A stretch of 64,000 nucleotides of DNA, taken from a bacterium. Its GTDB lineage: Bacteria > Hydrothermota > DG-26 > JAUXAN01. This document shows positions 22,780-32,838 of the stretch, piece by piece. Position 1 is the stretch's first letter. The number at the start of each line of letters is the position of its first letter. A program made the position numbers and the translations under genes. Below the pieces are notes generated by a model. The model did not search any database. It was given only the letters and a program-made list of their open reading frames with translations, and was not told the origin of the DNA. Location of the stretch: NCBI GenBank assembly GCA_030619885.1, contig JAUXAN010000003.1, forward strand, positions 1 to 64,000, read 5' to 3'.

Positions 22780-22908
22780 ATGAGTAAAAAAACGAGAAAA
22801 CGGCTAATGAAAAAAGGTCTCGAAACCCTAATGGACTCCGAACTTTTGGCAATTCTTTTGGATTCAGAATATAAAGAGAAAAAACAAGCAAGGAGAGAAA
22901 CATGGTAG
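22780..22908 (+). CDS. Mini-ORF resembling the N-terminal RadC/UPF0758 helix-hairpin segment (42 aa)
   Basis: MSKKTRKRLMKKGLETLMDSELLAILLDSEYKEKKQARRETW*; compare RadC-type R-E-R-L-L-x-x-G-x-E-x-L-S-D-x-E-L-L-A-I-L-L; stop overlaps the next start. Confidence 0.5.
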   Translation: MSKKTRKRLMKKGLETLMDSELLAILLDSEYKEKKQARRETW

Positions 22909-24479
22909 TTAAAAAACTGTCAGTTAGAGAAGAAGAATTCAAGAAGTTTAACATCACTGAAGAGCAATTTGGTCCGGTGATGCTTAGCAGATTGGGTAAG
23001 GGTCTATATAAAAATTCTTTACATTGTGTTCGTGAATACATTCAAAATGCTGTGGATGGAATTAACAAGTTCAATAGGGAATTTCCCGATGATCCAACAG
23101 ACAAGATCATTAGAATTCAGGCTGAGGGTGATACTATAATTTTTCATGATAATGGAATAGGTATGAATAAAGAAGATATTCTTACAGCCATAAGCTTTGG
23201 AGTTTCTCTAAAAGAAAGAATATACGACGCTGGTTTTTTGGGAATCGGTATTTTTTCTGGCGCTGCGATTGCTGATAGGTTACGAATATATACTACCAAG
23301 AAGGATGAGGTGAAGGCATTGGTGTTTGAAATTGACTTCAAATACATTGACAAAAATTATAAAGAGTACACAAGTGGTCTGAAATTATTGAGGGATGCAA
23401 CTCAATTTCAAGAAGTGGATGAAGACGAAAACAAACACTATTGCGAAGCCACTCTTTATGTAAATAAAGAATATCGATCTTTGCTTAAAAATGATGCAGA
23501 GATTAGACGATATATTTCGAATGTTTGTCCAGTAGATTTTCCAGATGAGTTTGAATACAAACCAATTATTACCGATTTTTATAAAAAATATGAAATAGAA
23601 GATCAAATTTTTGACATTCGATTAAATAAGATTCCCGTTTATCGACCATTTCCAACGAAAGTTAAAGAACCTGAATTTAAAGAGGTAATACACAAAGGTA
23701 AGCGATTGGCTGTATATTGGTACTGTGAAAATAAAAAGAAAGGTGTCATTGAAGGAAAAGAGAAAAAGAACGAAGATGATATAAGATACATAACTTATAG
23801 GTGGCGCAATTTCTTGATAGATGATCCTGACAGGCGAGATTATGCTGCTAGAGAGTTATTTAGAGGAAGACCTGAATTGATGAAAAATTATTTTGGAGAC
23901 ATTCATATATTGGACTTGGAGGATATTGAACCTGATTTGGAGAGAACAGGAGTTAGGCACACAGACACATATAAGCAATTTAAAGGTAGTATTAGAGATA
24001 GAAAAAATCCTAACAATATATTACTACTCTATGACCAAGCACACGATGTATCTAAACAAAAAACGTTGATGAAGGAAGTTGAAAAAGTCGAAGAAATTTG
24101 TAATAAAATCAATGAAAGAAAGCTTCCAACTAAGACGGAAGAACTTTATAAGAAAAAATTTGAAATCGAGGAACAGAAAAAGAATATAATGAAAAGGAAA
24201 AGGGAGAGCAGGGGCAGGGCTTATGATAAACTTTCAACTCCCGAAAAACAAAAGGTAGAAAAAAGCATAAAGAAATTAGAGAAGAAAGAGAAGAAAATAG
24301 AAAAGCATATTGTTGAATCACAGAAGGATAGGACCAAACCCAAGGAACCCCGTTTTGATTCCAAGATTGAGATAAAAATTGAACAGGTATTAAGGATTCT
24401 TAAAAGACATCTTAAGAATCATGCAACTCTTTATAATGCTATTATTAAAGATTTAGAAGCGTTGGTCAAAGGCAAGTAA
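22902..24479 (+). CDS. HSP90-like (GHKL) ATPase protein
   Basis: Bergerat fold motifs: REYIQNAVDGIN (N box), IIFHDNGIGMNKEDI (DxGxG), GFLGIGIFSGAAIADRLRIYT (GxxGxG); charged coiled-coil C-terminus. Confidence 0.85.
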   Translation: MVVKKLSVREEEFKKFNITEEQFGPVMLSRLGKGLYKNSLHCVREYIQNAVDGINKFNREFPDDPTDKIIRIQAEGDTIIFHDNGIGMNKEDILTAISFGVSLKERIYDAGFLGIGIFSGAAIADRLRIYTTKKDEVKALVFEIDFKYIDKNYKEYTSGLKLLRDATQFQEVDEDENKHYCEATLYVNKEYRSLLKNDAEIRRYISNVCPVDFPDEFEYKPIITDFYKKYEIEDQIFDIRLNKIPVYRPFPTKVKEPEFKEVIHKGKRLAVYWYCENKKKGVIEGKEKKNEDDIRYITYRWRNFLIDDPDRRDYAARELFRGRPELMKNYFGDIHILDLEDIEPDLERTGVRHTDTYKQFKGSIRDRKNPNNILLLYDQAHDVSKQKTLMKEVEKVEEICNKINERKLPTKTEELYKKKFEIEEQKKNIMKRKRESRGRAYDKLSTPEKQKVEKSIKKLEKKEKKIEKHIVESQKDRTKPKEPRFDSKIEIKIEQVLRILKRHLKNHATLYNAIIKDLEALVKGK

Positions 24480-24480
24480 G

Positions 24481-25428
24481 ATGATAGATGTTTTTACTGG
24501 AGGTCCAGTTAAGGATAAAATAAGAAAGGAGTTGGATGCTCCACTTATAAAAGAGGTTAGTAAAGACGGAAAAGAAAAGTTGTCATATTTTGGCCTATCT
24601 GGTCCATTGCTCTATGATATTATCGAATGGCAAGACTACTTGAAAGACTTTACAGTAGTTGAGGAAAGTTATACTGGAAGAAAAGAAAGGAGTATGGAAA
24701 GAAACCGCCAAGAGTTACTTCTAAAGAATTCTTTTATTACACAATTACGAGATGGTAGAGGAGTAATCAATGATTTTCTTGCAGTAATATACGGAGACAT
24801 TGATAGAGATATCATTCTAAAAGGCAAAGGAGATTTTGGTAAGGAATTACCAAGACAACAGTTTGGGCTTATATATCTAGACTACTATGGCGGTATCTTC
24901 AAAGCCAAACACAGAGAAGATGCAATCAAGAAACTTATTTCCAATCAGAAAGAAATTTCTGAAAAGGATTATGATTACGTTTTGCTCATTACAGTGGAAA
25001 ATTTGGATAAAGGAGAGGCAGAAAAAAGGAAATTAGCGAATGAAATATTGGATAATTTAAAAAATGCTCGAGTAGAAAATGGGTCTATAGAGAACTTTAA
25101 TAAGTTTTTACAGGGTTGTAGATATGGGTTATTGCAGAAAATATATGTTCCTATCCAGATATATTTGTATACAAAGTTTTGTGGAGATGGAATAAAATTT
25201 TATGAACCTGTTATTTATCAAGAGAATAAAATCGAGATCAAGAAAAGTGCCGAAATGCTTCATTTTAGATCTATTATTTCAATTCAGAAAGGAAAAAGGA
25301 CAACCACGCCTTTAATCAAAGATATAGTAGGTATTTGTAATTTGAAGCTTCTGACTGTAGAAAATGGTAAAATTGTTCCATACAAAGAGCAATTTCCTGA
25401 ATTATACCTAAATAAGAAAGCACAATGA
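24481..25428 (+). CDS. Uncharacterised protein, possibly a diverged Rossmann methyltransferase-like/TcmP-like protein
   Basis: Order of segments YFGLSGPLLYDIIEW, FTVVEES, FGLIYLDYYGGI parallels methyltransferase motifs I/II/IV; directly follows the ATPase gene. Confidence 0.4.
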   Translation: MIDVFTGGPVKDKIRKELDAPLIKEVSKDGKEKLSYFGLSGPLLYDIIEWQDYLKDFTVVEESYTGRKERSMERNRQELLLKNSFITQLRDGRGVINDFLAVIYGDIDRDIILKGKGDFGKELPRQQFGLIYLDYYGGIFKAKHREDAIKKLISNQKEISEKDYDYVLLITVENLDKGEAEKRKLANEILDNLKNARVENGSIENFNKFLQGCRYGLLQKIYVPIQIYLYTKFCGDGIKFYEPVIYQENKIEIKKSAEMLHFRSIISIQKGKRTTTPLIKDIVGICNLKLLTVENGKIVPYKEQFPELYLNKKAQ

Positions 25429-26573
25429 AAAAAAATGTTCTACTTGTTGAACCAGCATATAAGAACCCATATCCTCCTTTGGGTATGATGAAAATTTCAA
25501 CATGGTATAAGAGAAAGGGAAATGATGTCCAGTTTATTAAAGATACCCTCCATAGTCCCGAACTCGATCGTTTTGATAAGAAAAGGATGTGTTACAAGAA
25601 ACTCAAGGATTACTATGATATTATATATATAACAAGTTTGTTCACATATCAAGCCCATTATGTTATTGCTTCAACAAATTACTACAAAAACAGGTTCCCT
25701 GATACTCAAATAAAAGTGGGGGGGATCATGGCAACCCTCATGCCAGAACATATCGAAAAAAAGACTGGCATAAAACCGCATATTGGGCTACTCCGAGGAG
25801 CTGAAAACTGTCCACCAGATTATTCTTTGTACCCTAACCTAGAATATTCGATCACTTTCACAACTAGGGGATGTCCTAGACATTGTCCTTTCTGTGCCGT
25901 AAGGAAGCATGAACCAGAGTTTATTTTAAAAGAAAATTGGTTGGAAGACATTGACATTACAAAAAAGGGCATAATTTTCTGGGATAATAATTGGTTTTTT
26001 TCACCCAATTTCGAAAAGGATATTAAAAGGCTTATTGAATTTCAGAAAGTAGGAATAATCCAAATTGATTTTAATCAAGGTCTAGATTGCAGATTATTTG
26101 ATGAAGATAAAGCCAAACTTTTGAGCAAAGTAAAGATTAATCCACTGAGATTTGCATTTGATAATTGTTCAGAAGACAAATATATACAGAAAGCTATACA
26201 GTTGGCTCAAAAATGTAGATTCAAAGACATAAGGGTTTATGTCTTATATAATTTTGAAGATAATAACGATACACCAGAATACTTTTATTATAGAATCAAT
26301 GAACTGAATAAATTGGGGGTACTGACATATCCAATGCGTTATCGTCCTTTTAGTCTCAATGGTCAGTATGTCTCTCCCAAATGGGATAAACAACTGCTAA
26401 GGGCTCTAAAATTATCTCTTATGTTCTATTATACGAAAGGAATGATTAGAAAAAGCCGAGAAGCTTTTAAAGATATCTACGGAAACAATGCTAATGAATT
26501 TAAGAATAAATTATATAAGATATATGAGAATGATAAATTAAAAAATAAAAACAAAACTGAGGACATAAATTGA
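25425..26573 (+). CDS. Radical SAM protein with B12-binding-like N-terminal region
   Basis: NVLLVEPAYKNPYPPLGMMKISTWYK, VGGIMATLMPEHI, FTTRGCPRHCPFCAVRKHEPEF (CxxxCxxC). Confidence 0.85.
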   Translation: MKKNVLLVEPAYKNPYPPLGMMKISTWYKRKGNDVQFIKDTLHSPELDRFDKKRMCYKKLKDYYDIIYITSLFTYQAHYVIASTNYYKNRFPDTQIKVGGIMATLMPEHIEKKTGIKPHIGLLRGAENCPPDYSLYPNLEYSITFTTRGCPRHCPFCAVRKHEPEFILKENWLEDIDITKKGIIFWDNNWFFSPNFEKDIKRLIEFQKVGIIQIDFNQGLDCRLFDEDKAKLLSKVKINPLRFAFDNCSEDKYIQKAIQLAQKCRFKDIRVYVLYNFEDNNDTPEYFYYRINELNKLGVLTYPMRYRPFSLNGQYVSPKWDKQLLRALKLSLMFYYTKGMIRKSREAFKDIYGNNANEFKNKLYKIYENDKLKNKNKTEDIN

Positions 26574-26646
26574 AAAACAGATTGAAAGTGAGGATCGCGA
26601 GAACCTTTAAATATAAGGTGAGAAAGAAATTGAGATTTTCATCATT

Positions 26647-27684
26647 ATGGGAAAGGTGAAGGCAACAAGAGAAATATATGAAGGCACATTGCCATTGCTA
26701 ATACCTGAAAAGGTAAAGCCTGTCAAGCTGCCTATCCGAATAAAATACAAGGAATATCCAATGCTTGATGGGTCAAGAAAAAATTTAGTTCAACAGGTTG
26801 GAGATGGAGCAATTATCAAGCGATTCGAAAAAACACCAGTGCCTCAAAAGAAAATAGATGTAGTATGCCCACATTTTCTTGAACTAAAATGGGCTACTGG
26901 TTGTCCTTACGACTGTTCGTGGTGCTACCTAAAAGGGACTTTCCGCTTTTTGCCTTACAAGACTAAACCCCATATAAAAGATTTTGATAAGATTAAAAAA
27001 CATACTCAAGTGTTCTTGGAATATGTCGAAGAGCCTGAAATCTTAAATACAGGTGAGTTAGCAGATTCACTAATGTATGAAGGAAACAAAAAATCGTTTG
27101 TAAATTTTATAGTCCCTTTATTTGAAAATAAAAGTAAACATAAGGTCCTTTTCTTAACCAAATCAGATAGAATACAGAATCTCATGAAACTTGATTCTCA
27201 TAAGCAAGTAATAACAAGTTTTAGCTTGAACGCCATCCCTGTGGCTTGTAAGTGGGAACTTAAAGCCCCGTCTGTAAAAAGACGAATAAAGGCCGCAAAA
27301 ACACTTTATGACGAAGGATTTGAGGTAAGAATACGTATAGATCCTATGGTTCCTATAGAAAATTGGGAGAAATTATATCTTGAGTTAATTGACGATTTAT
27401 TTGATTCACTTATACCCGAAAGGATAACTTTGGGTTCTCTTCGTGGATTACAAAGCACTATCAACGGGGCAACAGATACATCATGGGTTAAATATCTTTC
27501 AGAATATTCAAATTGGGGTAAAAAAATAGATATAAATTCAAGACTTGCTATGTATAAAAATCTTATTTCATATCTACAAAAGAAACACAATTTTACCAAA
27601 GTAGCTTTTTGTAAAGAAAGCGTAGCTGTATGGGAAATACTCAAATTGGATTACAAAGAAATAAGATGCAACTGTGTTTGGTAA
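26647..27684 (+). CDS. Radical SAM protein, spore photoproduct lyase-like
   Basis: LKWATGCPYDCSWCYLKGTFRF (CxxxCxxC), NTGELADSLMYEG, FLTKSDRIQNLM, VRIRIDPMVPIENW. Confidence 0.8.
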   Translation: MGKVKATREIYEGTLPLLIPEKVKPVKLPIRIKYKEYPMLDGSRKNLVQQVGDGAIIKRFEKTPVPQKKIDVVCPHFLELKWATGCPYDCSWCYLKGTFRFLPYKTKPHIKDFDKIKKHTQVFLEYVEEPEILNTGELADSLMYEGNKKSFVNFIVPLFENKSKHKVLFLTKSDRIQNLMKLDSHKQVITSFSLNAIPVACKWELKAPSVKRRIKAAKTLYDEGFEVRIRIDPMVPIENWEKLYLELIDDLFDSLIPERITLGSLRGLQSTINGATDTSWVKYLSEYSNWGKKIDINSRLAMYKNLISYLQKKHNFTKVAFCKESVAVWEILKLDYKEIRCNCVW

Positions 27685-27696
27685 AAAGGATAAACT

Positions 27697-28794
27697 ATGG
27701 TTGTTAAAGAAACAATATGGAAGATTGAAGCACATACACAAGCGAAGCACGCCGTATTGGACAGATATCTGAAAGCTTGGCTTCCCATAATGAGTAAGTG
27801 GAATGGTCGGATTCTTTATATCGACGGTTTTGCAGGGCCAGGTAAATACTTTGATGAGGAGAATTTGCCAACTATCGATGGGTCTCCACTCATTGCCCTT
27901 AATGCAGCAAGAAAACATAAACTTCAGCTAAATGCAGAAATAGTATTCCTTTTTATTGAAGCAAGACATGATAGGTGTGAATATCTTAAAAGCCTGCTTG
28001 AATCAATAGATATACCTAAAAATATGAGATACGAAGTAATAGAAAGCAAATTTGACGAAACTCTCTCTTCCTTGCTTGATTATCTTGATGAACAGAAGAA
28101 AAGGCTTGCTCCAGCTTTCGTATTTATTGATCCATTTGGCTACTCGGATACTCCTTTTTCACTCATTAAACGAATAACAGAAAATAAAAAATGTGAGGTG
28201 CTTATCACATTTATGTATAGTTTTATTAAAAGAGCACTTACTAAATCTGACCAAGAAGGACATTTAGATAGACTTTTGGGAACTCAAGATTGGAGAAAGG
28301 TTCGTAATATCAATATTCCTCTAAAGAGAAAAGAATTTATTCAGCAACTTTATAAGAAACAACTGGAGGAAGAAGCAAAAATAAAATATGTCCGATTCTT
28401 TGAAATGATCAATAAATTCAACCAAACTGAATATTTCCTTTTCTTTGGAACCAATAATCTTGAGGGACTTAGACAAATAAACGCTGCCATGTGGAAGGTT
28501 GATCCAAAGGGCACATTTCAATTCTCGGATAGAACAAATCCTAACCAAACAGTGCTCTTCACTCCTGAACCTGACTATAATTTACTTAAAAAGTTAATTG
28601 TCCGAGAATTCAGGGGTAAAACAGTTCCAGTTGAAGAAATTGATGAGTTTGTTTTAATATCTGGGTTTACTCATTTCAAAAGGAATATTTTGAAGCCAAT
28701 GGAAAAAGCAAAACCTCATGAGATAGAAATAATTGAGAGCAGTAGGGAGCGGAAAGGAACTTATCCTCCGGATTCACTTATTAAGTTTTTATGA
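27697..28794 (+). CDS. tcmP: Three-Cys-motif partner (TcmP) family protein
   Basis: KHAVLDRYLKAWLPIM, ILYIDGFAGPGKYF, GSPLIALNAA, AFVFIDPFGYSDTPFSLIKRI. Confidence 0.85.
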   Translation: MVVKETIWKIEAHTQAKHAVLDRYLKAWLPIMSKWNGRILYIDGFAGPGKYFDEENLPTIDGSPLIALNAARKHKLQLNAEIVFLFIEARHDRCEYLKSLLESIDIPKNMRYEVIESKFDETLSSLLDYLDEQKKRLAPAFVFIDPFGYSDTPFSLIKRITENKKCEVLITFMYSFIKRALTKSDQEGHLDRLLGTQDWRKVRNINIPLKRKEFIQQLYKKQLEEEAKIKYVRFFEMINKFNQTEYFLFFGTNNLEGLRQINAAMWKVDPKGTFQFSDRTNPNQTVLFTPEPDYNLLKKLIVREFRGKTVPVEEIDEFVLISGFTHFKRNILKPMEKAKPHEIEIIESSRERKGTYPPDSLIKFL

Positions 28795-29000
28795 CTTGGG
28801 TAAAAATTATGAAGGCAGATAATACAGAAGTTAAAAACAAATTTTCTGAAAGGCCAAAGTTACTTAATCGCCCACGTTGTTATACTTACAATCCAAAAGA
28901 CGGCTGTTTGTATTGCGGGAATAAAACTTTCCGGTATTATTCTTCTGTATTTGGGAAAAAGTACTATCAATGCGAAAAATGCGGGGGTATAAATCATTAA
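28791..29000 (+). CDS. Mini zinc-ribbon protein
   Basis: CLYCGNKTFRYYSSVFGKKYYQCEKCGG (two CxxC knuckles); ATG overlaps the TcmP stop. Confidence 0.6.
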   Translation: MTWVKIMKADNTEVKNKFSERPKLLNRPRCYTYNPKDGCLYCGNKTFRYYSSVFGKKYYQCEKCGGINH

Positions 29001-29146
29001 CTTTGAAATTTCTTGATGTTACTGAAACAAGAAGAATTTGACTGCATAATGAAACTTAAGCAGTTCAAAAATGATGATGAAATTAACTTATTCTATTCTA
29101 TCGGGCGAATGACCCCATATTTTCAGTTAATGTATGAGATAGAATT

Positions 29147-29824
29147 ATGAAAGCGTGTTTTTTTGATTTTGGCGGAACATTGATGGACGACAAGAGTGAC
29201 AGACTTGCTCATCTGGAGGTCATAAAGAAGATAGAACAGACCTACAAGGTTGAGACCCCCTCAGAAAAGATACTCTCTCAACTGGAAACATATATAAGAT
29301 TTTTTGCAGAGAAACGTGCGAAGAGATGGATTAAATCAAAAAGTTTATTTTTAGATTCTTTTAAAAATATACTCGGTCTTGAAATCGACCCGGATTGGTT
29401 TATGAAAATCTACTACGATGCCCATAAACGATGCTGTAAATTATTTCCTTATGCTAAACAAGTATTGAAAGATGTGAAAGAGATGGGATGGTATTTGGGG
29501 CTCATCTCCGATATAGACGATGAGTATCTGTATTTTCAACTTGGTGAATTTTCTATAAGCGAAGACATTTTCGATTCGATAACCACATCCGATGCGGTGG
29601 GTGTTGGGAAACCGACCCCTTTGATATTCAAAACAGCACTCGATAAATGTGGAGGTGAGCCAAAAGTTGCTTTCTACATAGGAGATTCGCTTGATAAGGA
29701 TATAAAAGGGGCAAAGAGGATGGGTATGCAAACGATATGGTTTAAGGGCAATAAACACGAAGATGCAGATTATGTGATAAGTCAACTGAATGAAATCCCG
29801 CTGATTCTATCTAATGAAGGTTAG
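29147..29824 (+). CDS. HAD superfamily hydrolase
   Basis: ACFFDFGGTLMDDKSD, YLGLISDIDDEYL, VGVGKPTPLIFKTALDKCG, YIGDSLDKDIKGAKRMGMQTIWF. Confidence 0.85.
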   Translation: MKACFFDFGGTLMDDKSDRLAHLEVIKKIEQTYKVETPSEKILSQLETYIRFFAEKRAKRWIKSKSLFLDSFKNILGLEIDPDWFMKIYYDAHKRCCKLFPYAKQVLKDVKEMGWYLGLISDIDDEYLYFQLGEFSISEDIFDSITTSDAVGVGKPTPLIFKTALDKCGGEPKVAFYIGDSLDKDIKGAKRMGMQTIWFKGNKHEDADYVISQLNEIPLILSNEG

Positions 29825-30560: not shown

Positions 30561-31574
30561 ATGAAGGTAAAAGAAATCGCCAGAGCTGTTGAAGGAAGAT
30601 TGATAGGAAATGGAACCATTGAGATAGAAAATGTTGTGCCTATCAAAGAAGCAAAGAAAGGGGATATTACTTTTTTTCATGATAAGAGATATATCAAATA
30701 TTTGCATAAAAGCAAGGCATCTTGCATAGTCGTTCCACAAGGGATGGAAGAGCTAACGACTACAGTCATAGAAGTAAAAAATCCTGCCCTTGCCTTTGCC
30801 AAAATTCTAAACTTTTTTGCTCCTCAAAAGAAAATGGAAAAGGGGATACATAATACTGCAATCATTGGAAAGAATGTATCTATCCACAAGACCGCATCTA
30901 TTCAAGCCTTCTGTTGCATCGGTGATGATGTGAGAATTGAAAAGGGTGTCTGTATCTTCCCTTATGTCTATGTCGGTTCAGGAACTACGATAAGGGAAAA
31001 CTCAAAGATTTATTCCAATGTAACAGTTAGAGAAAACTCAAAGATAGGAAAGAGGGTGATAATCCATTCTGGAACTGTAATAGGTTCGGATGGCTATGGA
31101 TATGTGAAGGGCGACGGTCATCATCGCAAGATTCCACAGATAGGAAAAGTAATAATTGAGGATGATGTCGAGATAGGTGCCAACACCGCTATAGACCGTG
31201 CAACCCTCGGCGCTACAGTGATAGGGCGAGGTACGAAGATAGATAATCTTGTCCATATAGGTCATAATGTAAGAATAGGAGAAAATTCGCTCATAATCGC
31301 CCAGGTTGGAATATCTGGCAGCGTAGAAATCGGTAAAAATTGTGTACTCGCAGGACAGGCAGGTATTAGTGACCATATAAAACTTGGAGATAATGTAATA
31401 GTTGGGGGTCAGGCAGGGGTTACAAAATCTTTCCCGTCCAATATGAAAATCTCCGGTTATCCTGCAAGACCCCACTCCGATGCGCAAAGGTCTTATGCAA
31501 CTATTTCAATGTTGCCTGAACTGCTGCATAGATTGAAGAATCTGGAAAAAAAATATGCAGAGAACATTAAATAA
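30561..31574 (+). CDS. lpxD: UDP-3-O-(acyl)glucosamine N-acyltransferase
   Basis: [44 protein letters not shown], hexapeptide repeats, GSDGYGYV; start set to 30561, not 30510. Confidence 0.95.
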
Positions 31575-32838
31575 AAAAGGTTCTTTTACTGGAACGGGGC
31601 TTCATACAGGAAACAAGACGACCATAACCTTTAATCCATCCCCAGATGATAGTGGAATCAAATTTGTGCGGACAGACCTCAAAGATAGACCCGTCATTGA
31701 AGCAGACATTGACCATGTAGTGGAGACTGATAGAGGAACGACCATATCTTTAAATGGCGTAAAAATCCACACGGTCGAACATGTGCTTGCGTCTATATCT
31801 GGTCTTGAAATTGATAATGTGAGAATCGAACTGAACGGTTCTGAACCACCTGTCGGCGACGGAAGTTCTCTACCATTTGTTGATACGATAAAAAAGGCAG
31901 GCATTAAAGAAGGGCAGAAAGAAAGGGACTATTATGTAATTCGCAAACCTTATGTTTTTTCCGATGGTGATGTTCATATAGTTGCAAATCCCGCAGATAA
32001 CTTGAAAGTATCGTTCACAATAGACTACCCGAATCCTATAGTGAAATCACAGTATATATCCCTGTCAATAGACCCGAAGACTTTTTCGAAGGAAATCGCA
32101 CCTGCAAGAACTTACTGTTTTGCTGAAGATGTGGAGAGGCTGAGAAGTAAGGGGTTGATAAAAGGCGGAAGTTTTGATAATGCAATAGTAATAACAAAAG
32201 ATGGTTTTATGAACGAAACACCACTCAGGTTTCCCAACGAGTTCGTGCGGCACAAAATAATTGACCTTCTTGGTGACCTGGCACTCTTGGGTGGTCCTCT
32301 CAATGCCCATATAATCTCTATAAAATCCGGCCATAGAACTAATGTTAAATTTATACAAAAGTTAAAAAAATATGTTCAAAAAGAAAAAGCTGGATCTTTT
32401 GATATTTCAAATATACTCGAAGTTATGCCTCATAGATACCCTTTCTTGCTCGTTGACAGAATCATTGAACTTGAACCCAAAAGGGTTGTTGGGATAAAAA
32501 ATGTCACTTTTAACGAACCTTACTTTCAAGGACATTTCCCTGGAGTGCCGGTAATGCCTGGTGTGCTCATTGTAGAGGCGATGGCTCAGGTAGGTGGGTT
32601 TCTTCTACTCCACTCGGTAGAGAAGAAAGAGAACAAACTCGTCTATTTTGTAGGAATAGATGGGATAAAATTCAGAAGACCTGTGAAACCTGGGGACCAA
32701 ATCAGGTTTGAACTCAATCTACTTAAACACAAGGCAAGGATGTACAAGATGTCAGGGCATGCATATGTGGATAATCACTTAGTATGCGAGGGCGAACTTC
32801 TTGCCCAGGTAGTGGAGAAACCAGATGGAAATAGATAA
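31555..32838 (+). CDS. lpxC-fabZ: Bifunctional LpxC deacetylase / FabZ dehydratase fusion
   Basis: Lpx[65 protein letters not shown]; Fab[38 protein letters not shown]. Confidence 0.95.

Follow-up and report, generated by a model that had tools for sequence, protein, structure and literature searches.

We analysed a stretch of 64,000 nucleotides (nt) of DNA from a bacterium of the lineage Hydrothermota (contig JAUXAN010000003.1; hereafter the window) and focused on an island of genes at positions 22780-29000, all on the + strand, in which an HSP90/MORC-like ATPase is encoded together with two radical S-adenosylmethionine (SAM) proteins and a three-Cys-motif partner protein (TcmP). The island is flanked by hisS on one side and a HAD/nth gene pair on the other. 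Its seven open reading frames (ORFs) are the following, with lengths in amino acids (aa).

22780-22908, + strand: fragment of the RadC/UPF0758 N-terminal domain, 42 aa (PF20582, E 2e-6)
22902-24479, + strand: P0001, HSP90/MORC-like GHKL ATPase, 525 aa (PF13589, 8e-8; NF010683, 5e-10)
24481-25428, + strand: P0002, protein with a predicted class I methyltransferase fold, 'P2L' family, 315 aa
25425-26573, + strand: P0003, radical SAM enzyme with a B12-binding-like N-terminal domain, 382 aa (CX3CX2C at residues 150-157)
26647-27684, + strand: P0004, radical SAM protein of the spore photoproduct lyase (SPL) type and partner of TcmP, 345 aa (PF20903, 1e-14; TIGR04070, 6e-19)
27697-28794, + strand: P0005, TcmP, 365 aa (TIGR04474, 7e-67)
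28791-29000, + strand: P0006, small putative zinc-ribbon protein, 69 aa (CLYC-x17-CEKC, recognised from the sequence only; 4-nt overlap with the TcmP gene)

The positions, shared direction and close packing of these ORFs had been given in an original prediction made from the DNA letters, and all coordinates and junctions were verified. Neighbouring genes overlap by 7, 4 and 4 nt or are separated by gaps of 1 nt (24479/24481), 12 nt and 73 nt, and the largest gap (26574-26646) falls at the border between two modules. Judged by gene content, the island is a junction of an ATPase-P2L-radical SAM module and an SPL-type radical SAM-TcmP module, the latter with the zinc ribbon. Five of the six main ORFs (22902-29000) are real genes since homologues back them: HATPase_c_3 for P0001 (8e-8), the phage family phrog_9298 for P0003 (2e-59), SPL for P0004 (1e-14), TcmP for P0005 (7e-67), and relatives of P0002 in 11 other loci. 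The island was probably acquired horizontally, because it is AT-rich (32-34% GC compared with 36-43% in the flanks) and because the ATPase and the 315-aa protein are present in just 1 of the 147 genomes of the phylum.

The ATPase-radical SAM core and its accessory genes

P0001 consists of an N-terminal and a middle domain (residues 19-390) followed by a helical coiled-coil tail (residues 391-525). Its AlphaFold2 model (predicted local distance difference test, pLDDT, 81) matched the folds of Hsp90 (Z 25 over about 300 residues), MORC3 (Z 21) and GyrB (Z 19-20), and P0001 thus has both the GHKL N-terminal and the middle domain of HSP90. As to a C-terminal dimerisation domain like that of HSP90, the helical tail lay outside the HSP90 matches in this model of the whole protein. 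The ATP-site motifs REYIQN, DNGIGM and GFLGIG are intact, and among 113 family members REYxQN was kept in 110, DNGxG in 100 and GFxGIG in 105. Despite the shared ATP-binding and middle domains, P0001 differs from HSP90/HtpG in its coiled-coil tail, in scores far below both family cut-offs (26.5 versus 371 bits and 38.6 versus 455 bits), and in the defence-type neighbourhoods of its relatives. Similarity was also seen to the MORC/paraMORC GHKL ATPases of restriction-modification neighbourhoods (PMC3710099), which share the GHKL and S5-like middle domains and the type of neighbourhood; the ATPase described here, however, has a radical SAM enzyme as its partner, and no fusion to HEPN or restriction endonuclease domains was seen.

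Relatives of P0001 were searched for in a database of 84,980 species with one genome each, using an alignment of P0001 and relatives from alphaproteobacterial plasmids that had been found with P0001. The best 80 of 279 relatives were kept, which left 77 loci (referred to below by L numbers) after removal of near-copies. A P0003-type radical SAM gene was present in 73 of the 77 loci, directly adjacent to the ATPase gene in 65 and elsewhere in the locus in eight, and all 65 adjacent pairs were co-directional. Of the four loci without it, two lie on short contigs, of at most about 4 kb. The loci come from about 19 bacterial and archaeal groups of phylum level, among them methanogens. A search with P0003 independently matched nearly the same set of alphaproteobacterial plasmids, and as a control, 278 kb drawn at random from the same genomes contained one weak match (6e-6) to the radical SAM profile. 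The ATPase and the radical SAM enzyme form a constant pair that is mobile and modular.

P0003 had its best family match in phrog_9298. Its Pfam matches lie below the curated cut-offs (Radical_SAM 5e-6; B12-binding 6e-5, with 23 bits against a cut-off of 32), and a relative in L028 reaches 40 bits for the B12-binding domain. Both P0003 (CPRHCPFC) and P0004 (CPYDCSWC) carry the [4Fe-4S] cluster motif of radical SAM enzymes. In P0003 it is invariant in alignment A1, and CX3CX2C was kept in 89 of 94 cellular and in all 79 viral radical SAM proteins. The only solved structures matched by the P0003 profile were RimO-type methylthiotransferases. In five loci, all of the P2L type (L033, L041, L091, L105, L028), radical SAM genes occur in tandem with one copy lacking CX3CX2C, which might represent a pseudoenzyme beside an active enzyme.

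The 315-aa protein P0002 had been described as methyltransferase-like, and this is borne out by its predicted fold. The AlphaFold2 model (pLDDT 81) best matched the tRNA G26 methyltransferase Trm1 (3axs; Z 14.3, 233 residues, 4.2 Å); the structural matches share 11-13% identity, and no Trm1 match was found in Pfam or NCBIfam. A conserved Asp lies within the motif-IV-like NLDFYGG of the family. P0002 also matched NF047698 weakly (2e-4), and the weakly similar PP_RS20740 family was found in the literature only in a study on furfural tolerance (PMC9630843). The possibility that P2L is a homologue of TcmP was dropped at a profile comparison probability of about 0.1%. Foldseek of P0002 against viral structures returned generic methyltransferases only, and no P0002 relative was found in plasmids. 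Alignments were used as queries after single-sequence pattern scans with P0002 (genome and viral contigs) and P0003 (viral contigs) had returned no matches.

P2L genes were present in 12 of the 77 loci, five of which also hold DUF5131, usually with a DndH-like HerA ATPase. All 11 P2L relatives clustered by sequence are encoded directly 3' of an HSP90-like ATPase gene. In a reverse search of three phyla with a P2L alignment, P2L was found in less than 2% of genomes; of three new copies, those in L230 (DUF5131 - Dam-type methyltransferase - ATPase - P2L) and L232 (GHKL - P2L - radical SAM - ATPase) were accompanied by the HSP90-like ATPase and that in L231 was not. The architecture nearest to that of the island was found in L041 from Caldisericales, with the order NurA - HerA - Eco57I-type methyltransferase - SPL-type radical SAM - ATPase - P2L - degenerate radical SAM - radical SAM and no TcmP.

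The core is accompanied by varying accessory genes. A NurA and/or HerA-like gene was found in 26 of the 77 loci, usually immediately upstream of the ATPase-radical SAM genes, and seven loci (L035, L053, L054, L065, L081, L087, L101) show a compact four-gene operon, NurA-HerA-HSP90-radical SAM, in which the system probably takes its simplest testable form. The HerA and NurA profiles matched the respective proteins of the solved complex 7f6d (1e-63 and 0.003). These loci differ from known HerA-NurA defence or repair machinery in the non-canonical P-loop of their HerA (SGLATKTS) and in the operon that it shares with the ATPase and radical SAM genes; the window copy has no HerA-NurA. ParB-like genes and an SNF2 helicase occur in 16 loci, often with a DndB/DpdB-like DGQHR protein, and a small gene frequent in these loci may encode a PD-(D/E)XK nuclease, in which no Pfam domain was matched. 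Large islands with ParB, SNF2, DndB-like, radical SAM, HSP90 and PIN genes were observed on rhizobial and Novosphingobium plasmids (L002, L003, L006, L012). In 13 loci a PIN_8 protein was found, which as a rule comes with an HSP90-like ATPase of its own. Single loci hold a DrmB-like gene, a helicase with a DndD-like gene, or DNA methyltransferase genes (Eco57I-like in L041, Dam-type in L230). Profile comparisons identified the DpdB-like (8e-19) and DndH-like (3e-47) proteins, and SNF2, DndB, PIN_8 and DUF87 were also recognised. On the ATPase tree the accessory-gene labels were strongly clustered, yet about 20 changes were needed, which fits an exchange of modules. Relatives of the window locus thus share DndB/DpdB-like, SNF2, DndH-like HerA and DrmB-like genes with Dnd, Dpd and DISARM, from which they differ in the constant pair of ATPase and radical SAM enzyme; no hallmark modification gene of Dnd, Dpd or DISARM turned up in the recurrent gene families.

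Enrichment near defence genes had been proposed as a check, and the neighbourhoods of the ATPase loci were indeed rich in PADLOC matches. At a threshold of 1e-10, 153 PADLOC profiles were matched in 125 flank proteins compared with 12 in 125 proteins drawn at random from these genomes. The 12 control matches were mostly housekeeping look-alikes, and the contrast is conservative because one of the control stretches overlaps with a foreground contig. None of the PADLOC 2023 profiles matched the core itself (10 ATPases at 1e-5; the radical SAM proteins P0003 and that of L006). No text combining these genes was found in the open-access literature; subscription journals and preprints lay outside this search, and a prior description is possible.

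Relatives of P0003 were also encoded on viral contigs (287 matches). Among the best 80, which were kept for analysis, few had the ATPase beside the radical SAM gene (L113, L114, L116-L118, L161, L169), and the remainder were solo copies. The phage radical SAM gene overlaps a DNA methyltransferase gene in L236 and lies near one in L010 and L234; other annotated neighbours are helicase, RecT/Erf, exonuclease and ParB genes, and in Marinitoga camini virus 1 the gene is located beside HerA-NurA. A solo radical SAM gene near DNA-modifying genes is what might be expected of a protective modification enzyme. In four viral contigs (L111, L123, L131, L174), a radical SAM gene of the P0003 type lies no more than about 8 kb from DUF5131.

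The SPL-type radical SAM-TcmP module

P0005 was clearly assigned to TcmP (226 bits against a cut-off of 53 for TIGR04474). It shows the methyltransferase-like motifs GFAGPG and IDPFG and a weak C-terminal winged helix-turn-helix (GMT-wHTH, 0.004). That TcmP proteins are partners of radical SAM proteins had been anticipated, and pairing with three-Cys/radical SAM proteins was found: TcmP mostly adjoins DUF5131 in the genomes searched, those of the window's phylum and others. P0005 also matched the A component of the PADLOC candidate system PDC-M30 (PDC-M30A, 8e-60), which combines TcmP with DUF5131. A three-Cys partner adjoins TcmP in the window as well; it is, however, an SPL-type radical SAM protein in place of DUF5131, and P0004 matched neither DUF5131 nor PDC-M30B in Pfam and PADLOC searches. 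Close homologues of P0004 in L016 and L018 (E 1e-123 and 5e-141) form the C-terminal half of a TcmP fusion protein. As both parts are carried there on a single protein, P0004-P0005 is the unfused form of an SPL-type radical SAM/TcmP pair. In L021 and L026, TcmP is fused to another three-Cys radical SAM-like domain (Cx3Cx3C), which is distinct from DUF5131 as well as from the SPL type. In genome G126, a protein encoded beside the TcmP-SPL fusion (L187 6801-8030) was read by eye as DUF262-HNH, a GmrSD-like nuclease.

The radical SAM core of P0004 (residues 80-254) matched solved SPL (E 1e-7), and its Pfam Radical_SAM match (1e-5), which lies below the gathering score, is backed by the SPL match. 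We nevertheless excluded that P0004 is a spore photoproduct lyase. Cys140 of SPL, the H-atom donor (wild type ...EAACTSD...), has no counterpart in P0004, in which no Cys occurs from the cluster motif to residue 200, and the score for TIGR04070 is 68 bits against a cut-off of 400. P0004-type proteins further differ from SPL in being encoded beside, or fused to, TcmP. For P0006 no match was obtained in Pfam, NCBIfam or PADLOC.

According to the original prediction the genes could form one module, with a neighbourhood that should recur elsewhere; a single recurring system of all six genes was not supported. The combination of ATPase, 315-aa protein and radical SAM enzyme did recur, but TcmP was not part of the recurring set, and no second locus with all four was found. 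TcmP was present in 12 of 40 ATPase-bearing genomes, where the copies found lie away from the ATPase locus, and it was absent from every ATPase-radical SAM locus examined apart from that of the window.

Possible function and alternative explanations

As the best explanation of the whole, and one that we hold to be about as likely as not, the island would be a mobile defence-type system acting on nucleic acid, most likely DNA, with the HSP90/MORC-type ATPase and the B12-type radical SAM enzyme as its core. HSP90/MORC-type ATPases are ATP-gated dimeric clamps. The radical SAM enzyme, helped in the window by the Trm1-fold methyltransferase-like protein, would place or read a nucleobase mark, and the ATPase would close on the target strand or complex upon ATP binding and pass a signal to a swappable effector. 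Elsewhere such effectors would be HerA-NurA, PD-(D/E)XK/SNF2/ParB or PIN nucleases, which would destroy unmarked or invading DNA and may act against phages. In the window, the methyltransferase-like proteins P2L and TcmP might assist the chemistry, and the core would be joined by a second, separable modification pair, the SPL-type radical SAM protein and TcmP with the zinc ribbon. Because no nuclease was recognised among its genes, the window copy may be limited to modification, could make use of an effector supplied in trans or could work through an unrecognised protein such as P0006.

More tentatively, and with confidence that falls well short of even, the ATPase and the B12-type radical SAM enzyme could be the constant core of an undescribed and widespread class of prokaryotic immune systems that mark DNA by radical chemistry and license interchangeable nucleases through the clamp, with solo copies of the radical SAM gene in phages serving self-protection. 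The window would then hold a rare composite, with a further radical SAM/methyltransferase pair added to this core. Should this be the case, radical SAM chemistry would be new to the field of restriction and defence, where it would provide a general step of modification, and the HSP90 fold would serve immunity here rather than the folding of proteins; several orphan families (TcmP, DUF5131, phrog_9298, P2L) would also receive a function at once. The four-gene NurA-HerA-HSP90-radical SAM loci are found in cultured hosts, such as Bacilliculturomica massiliensis (L035), which makes the model directly testable.

Several observations weigh against a defence function on DNA. The island is flanked by housekeeping genes, and none of its six genes encodes a recognisable nuclease. 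In the tree P0001 has an uncertain position at the end of a long branch (2.03), and the profiles of P2L and TcmP do not align to each other. The defence contrast counts profiles, which are redundant in PADLOC, rather than proteins, and some flank matches (DndD-like, DrmB-like) may belong to the loci themselves. The RimO-like match of P0003, the Trm1-like folds and the PIN domains would suit RNA equally well.

The Trm1-like fold of P0002 in particular makes an RNA target a serious rival. The radical SAM, Trm1-fold and TcmP proteins would then modify tRNA or rRNA, either to protect against a tRNA-targeting conflict system or as a component of one, and PIN effectors would cut RNA. The RimO-type structures matched by P0003, the PIN_8 proteins of 13 loci and one phage radical SAM copy near an RNA ligase are in line with this. 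We nonetheless consider it rather unlikely, as the accessory genes mostly act on DNA (HerA-NurA, SNF2 with ParB and DndB/DpdB-like proteins, DNA methyltransferases, DrmB-like) and the phage copies are located in modules for DNA replication and recombination. Still less probable appears a role in DNA repair, in which a MutL-like GHKL ATPase, an SPL-like radical SAM protein and HerA-NurA end resection would fix lesions. The relationship of P0004 to SPL, the processing of DNA ends by HerA-NurA and the location of nth 0.8 kb downstream would agree with such a role, but P0004 lacks the Cys140 counterpart, and presence in one of 147 phylum genomes, carriage on plasmids and viral contigs and the defence genes in the flanks fit mobile conflict systems better. 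A different radical SAM protein, from vWA-MoxR FtsH ternary conflict systems, has been suggested to modify a peptide effector (PMC7159879). By this precedent the radical SAM enzyme might act on a peptide resembling ribosomally synthesized and post-translationally modified peptides (RiPPs), and the products of small ORFs, for example the 69-aa zinc ribbon, could serve as substrates. We regard this as the least probable of the alternatives: clustering of ORFs of at least 90 aa revealed no conserved small peptide family beside the ATPase-radical SAM genes, and no extra Cys cluster is visible in P0003.

A different kind of alternative concerns the unity of the island. The ATPase-P2L-radical SAM and SPL-type radical SAM-TcmP-zinc ribbon modules could be independent and merely share an integration site, to which we attribute slightly less than an even chance. 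TcmP with a DUF5131 or SPL-type partner stands alone in many genomes, none of the ATPase-radical SAM loci of other genomes held TcmP, and the 73-nt gap coincides with the module border. In L041, on the other hand, the SPL-type radical SAM gene is located directly 5' of ATPase-P2L-radical SAM, and DUF5131 shares a locus with ATPase-P2L in L027, L029, L033, L037, L091 and L230. The two kinds of module therefore co-occur more than once.

Borders of the island

The original prediction also counted a RadC-like mini-ORF among the genes of the set. Its homology to RadC was confirmed, but RadC was excluded as a component: the 42-aa ORF is an N-terminal domain fragment and probably a remnant, and an intact radC is encoded on another contig of the same genome (G000:C13:17100-17468). 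The fragment lies at the left edge of the island and may be the trace of an old junction formed by insertion or recombination. A search for flanking direct repeats or an integration signature returned only weak repeats typical of AT-rich sequence.

From their spacing, transcription of the six genes as a single unit is plausible. Promoter-like matches were not in excess (25 compared with 27.7 in shuffled sequence). Five terminator-like sites were found against a mean of 2.7, none of them on the + strand within 29000-29200. Further downstream in the window (31555-32838), LpxC and FabZ are apparently encoded as one fused ORF, judging by its length and sequence.

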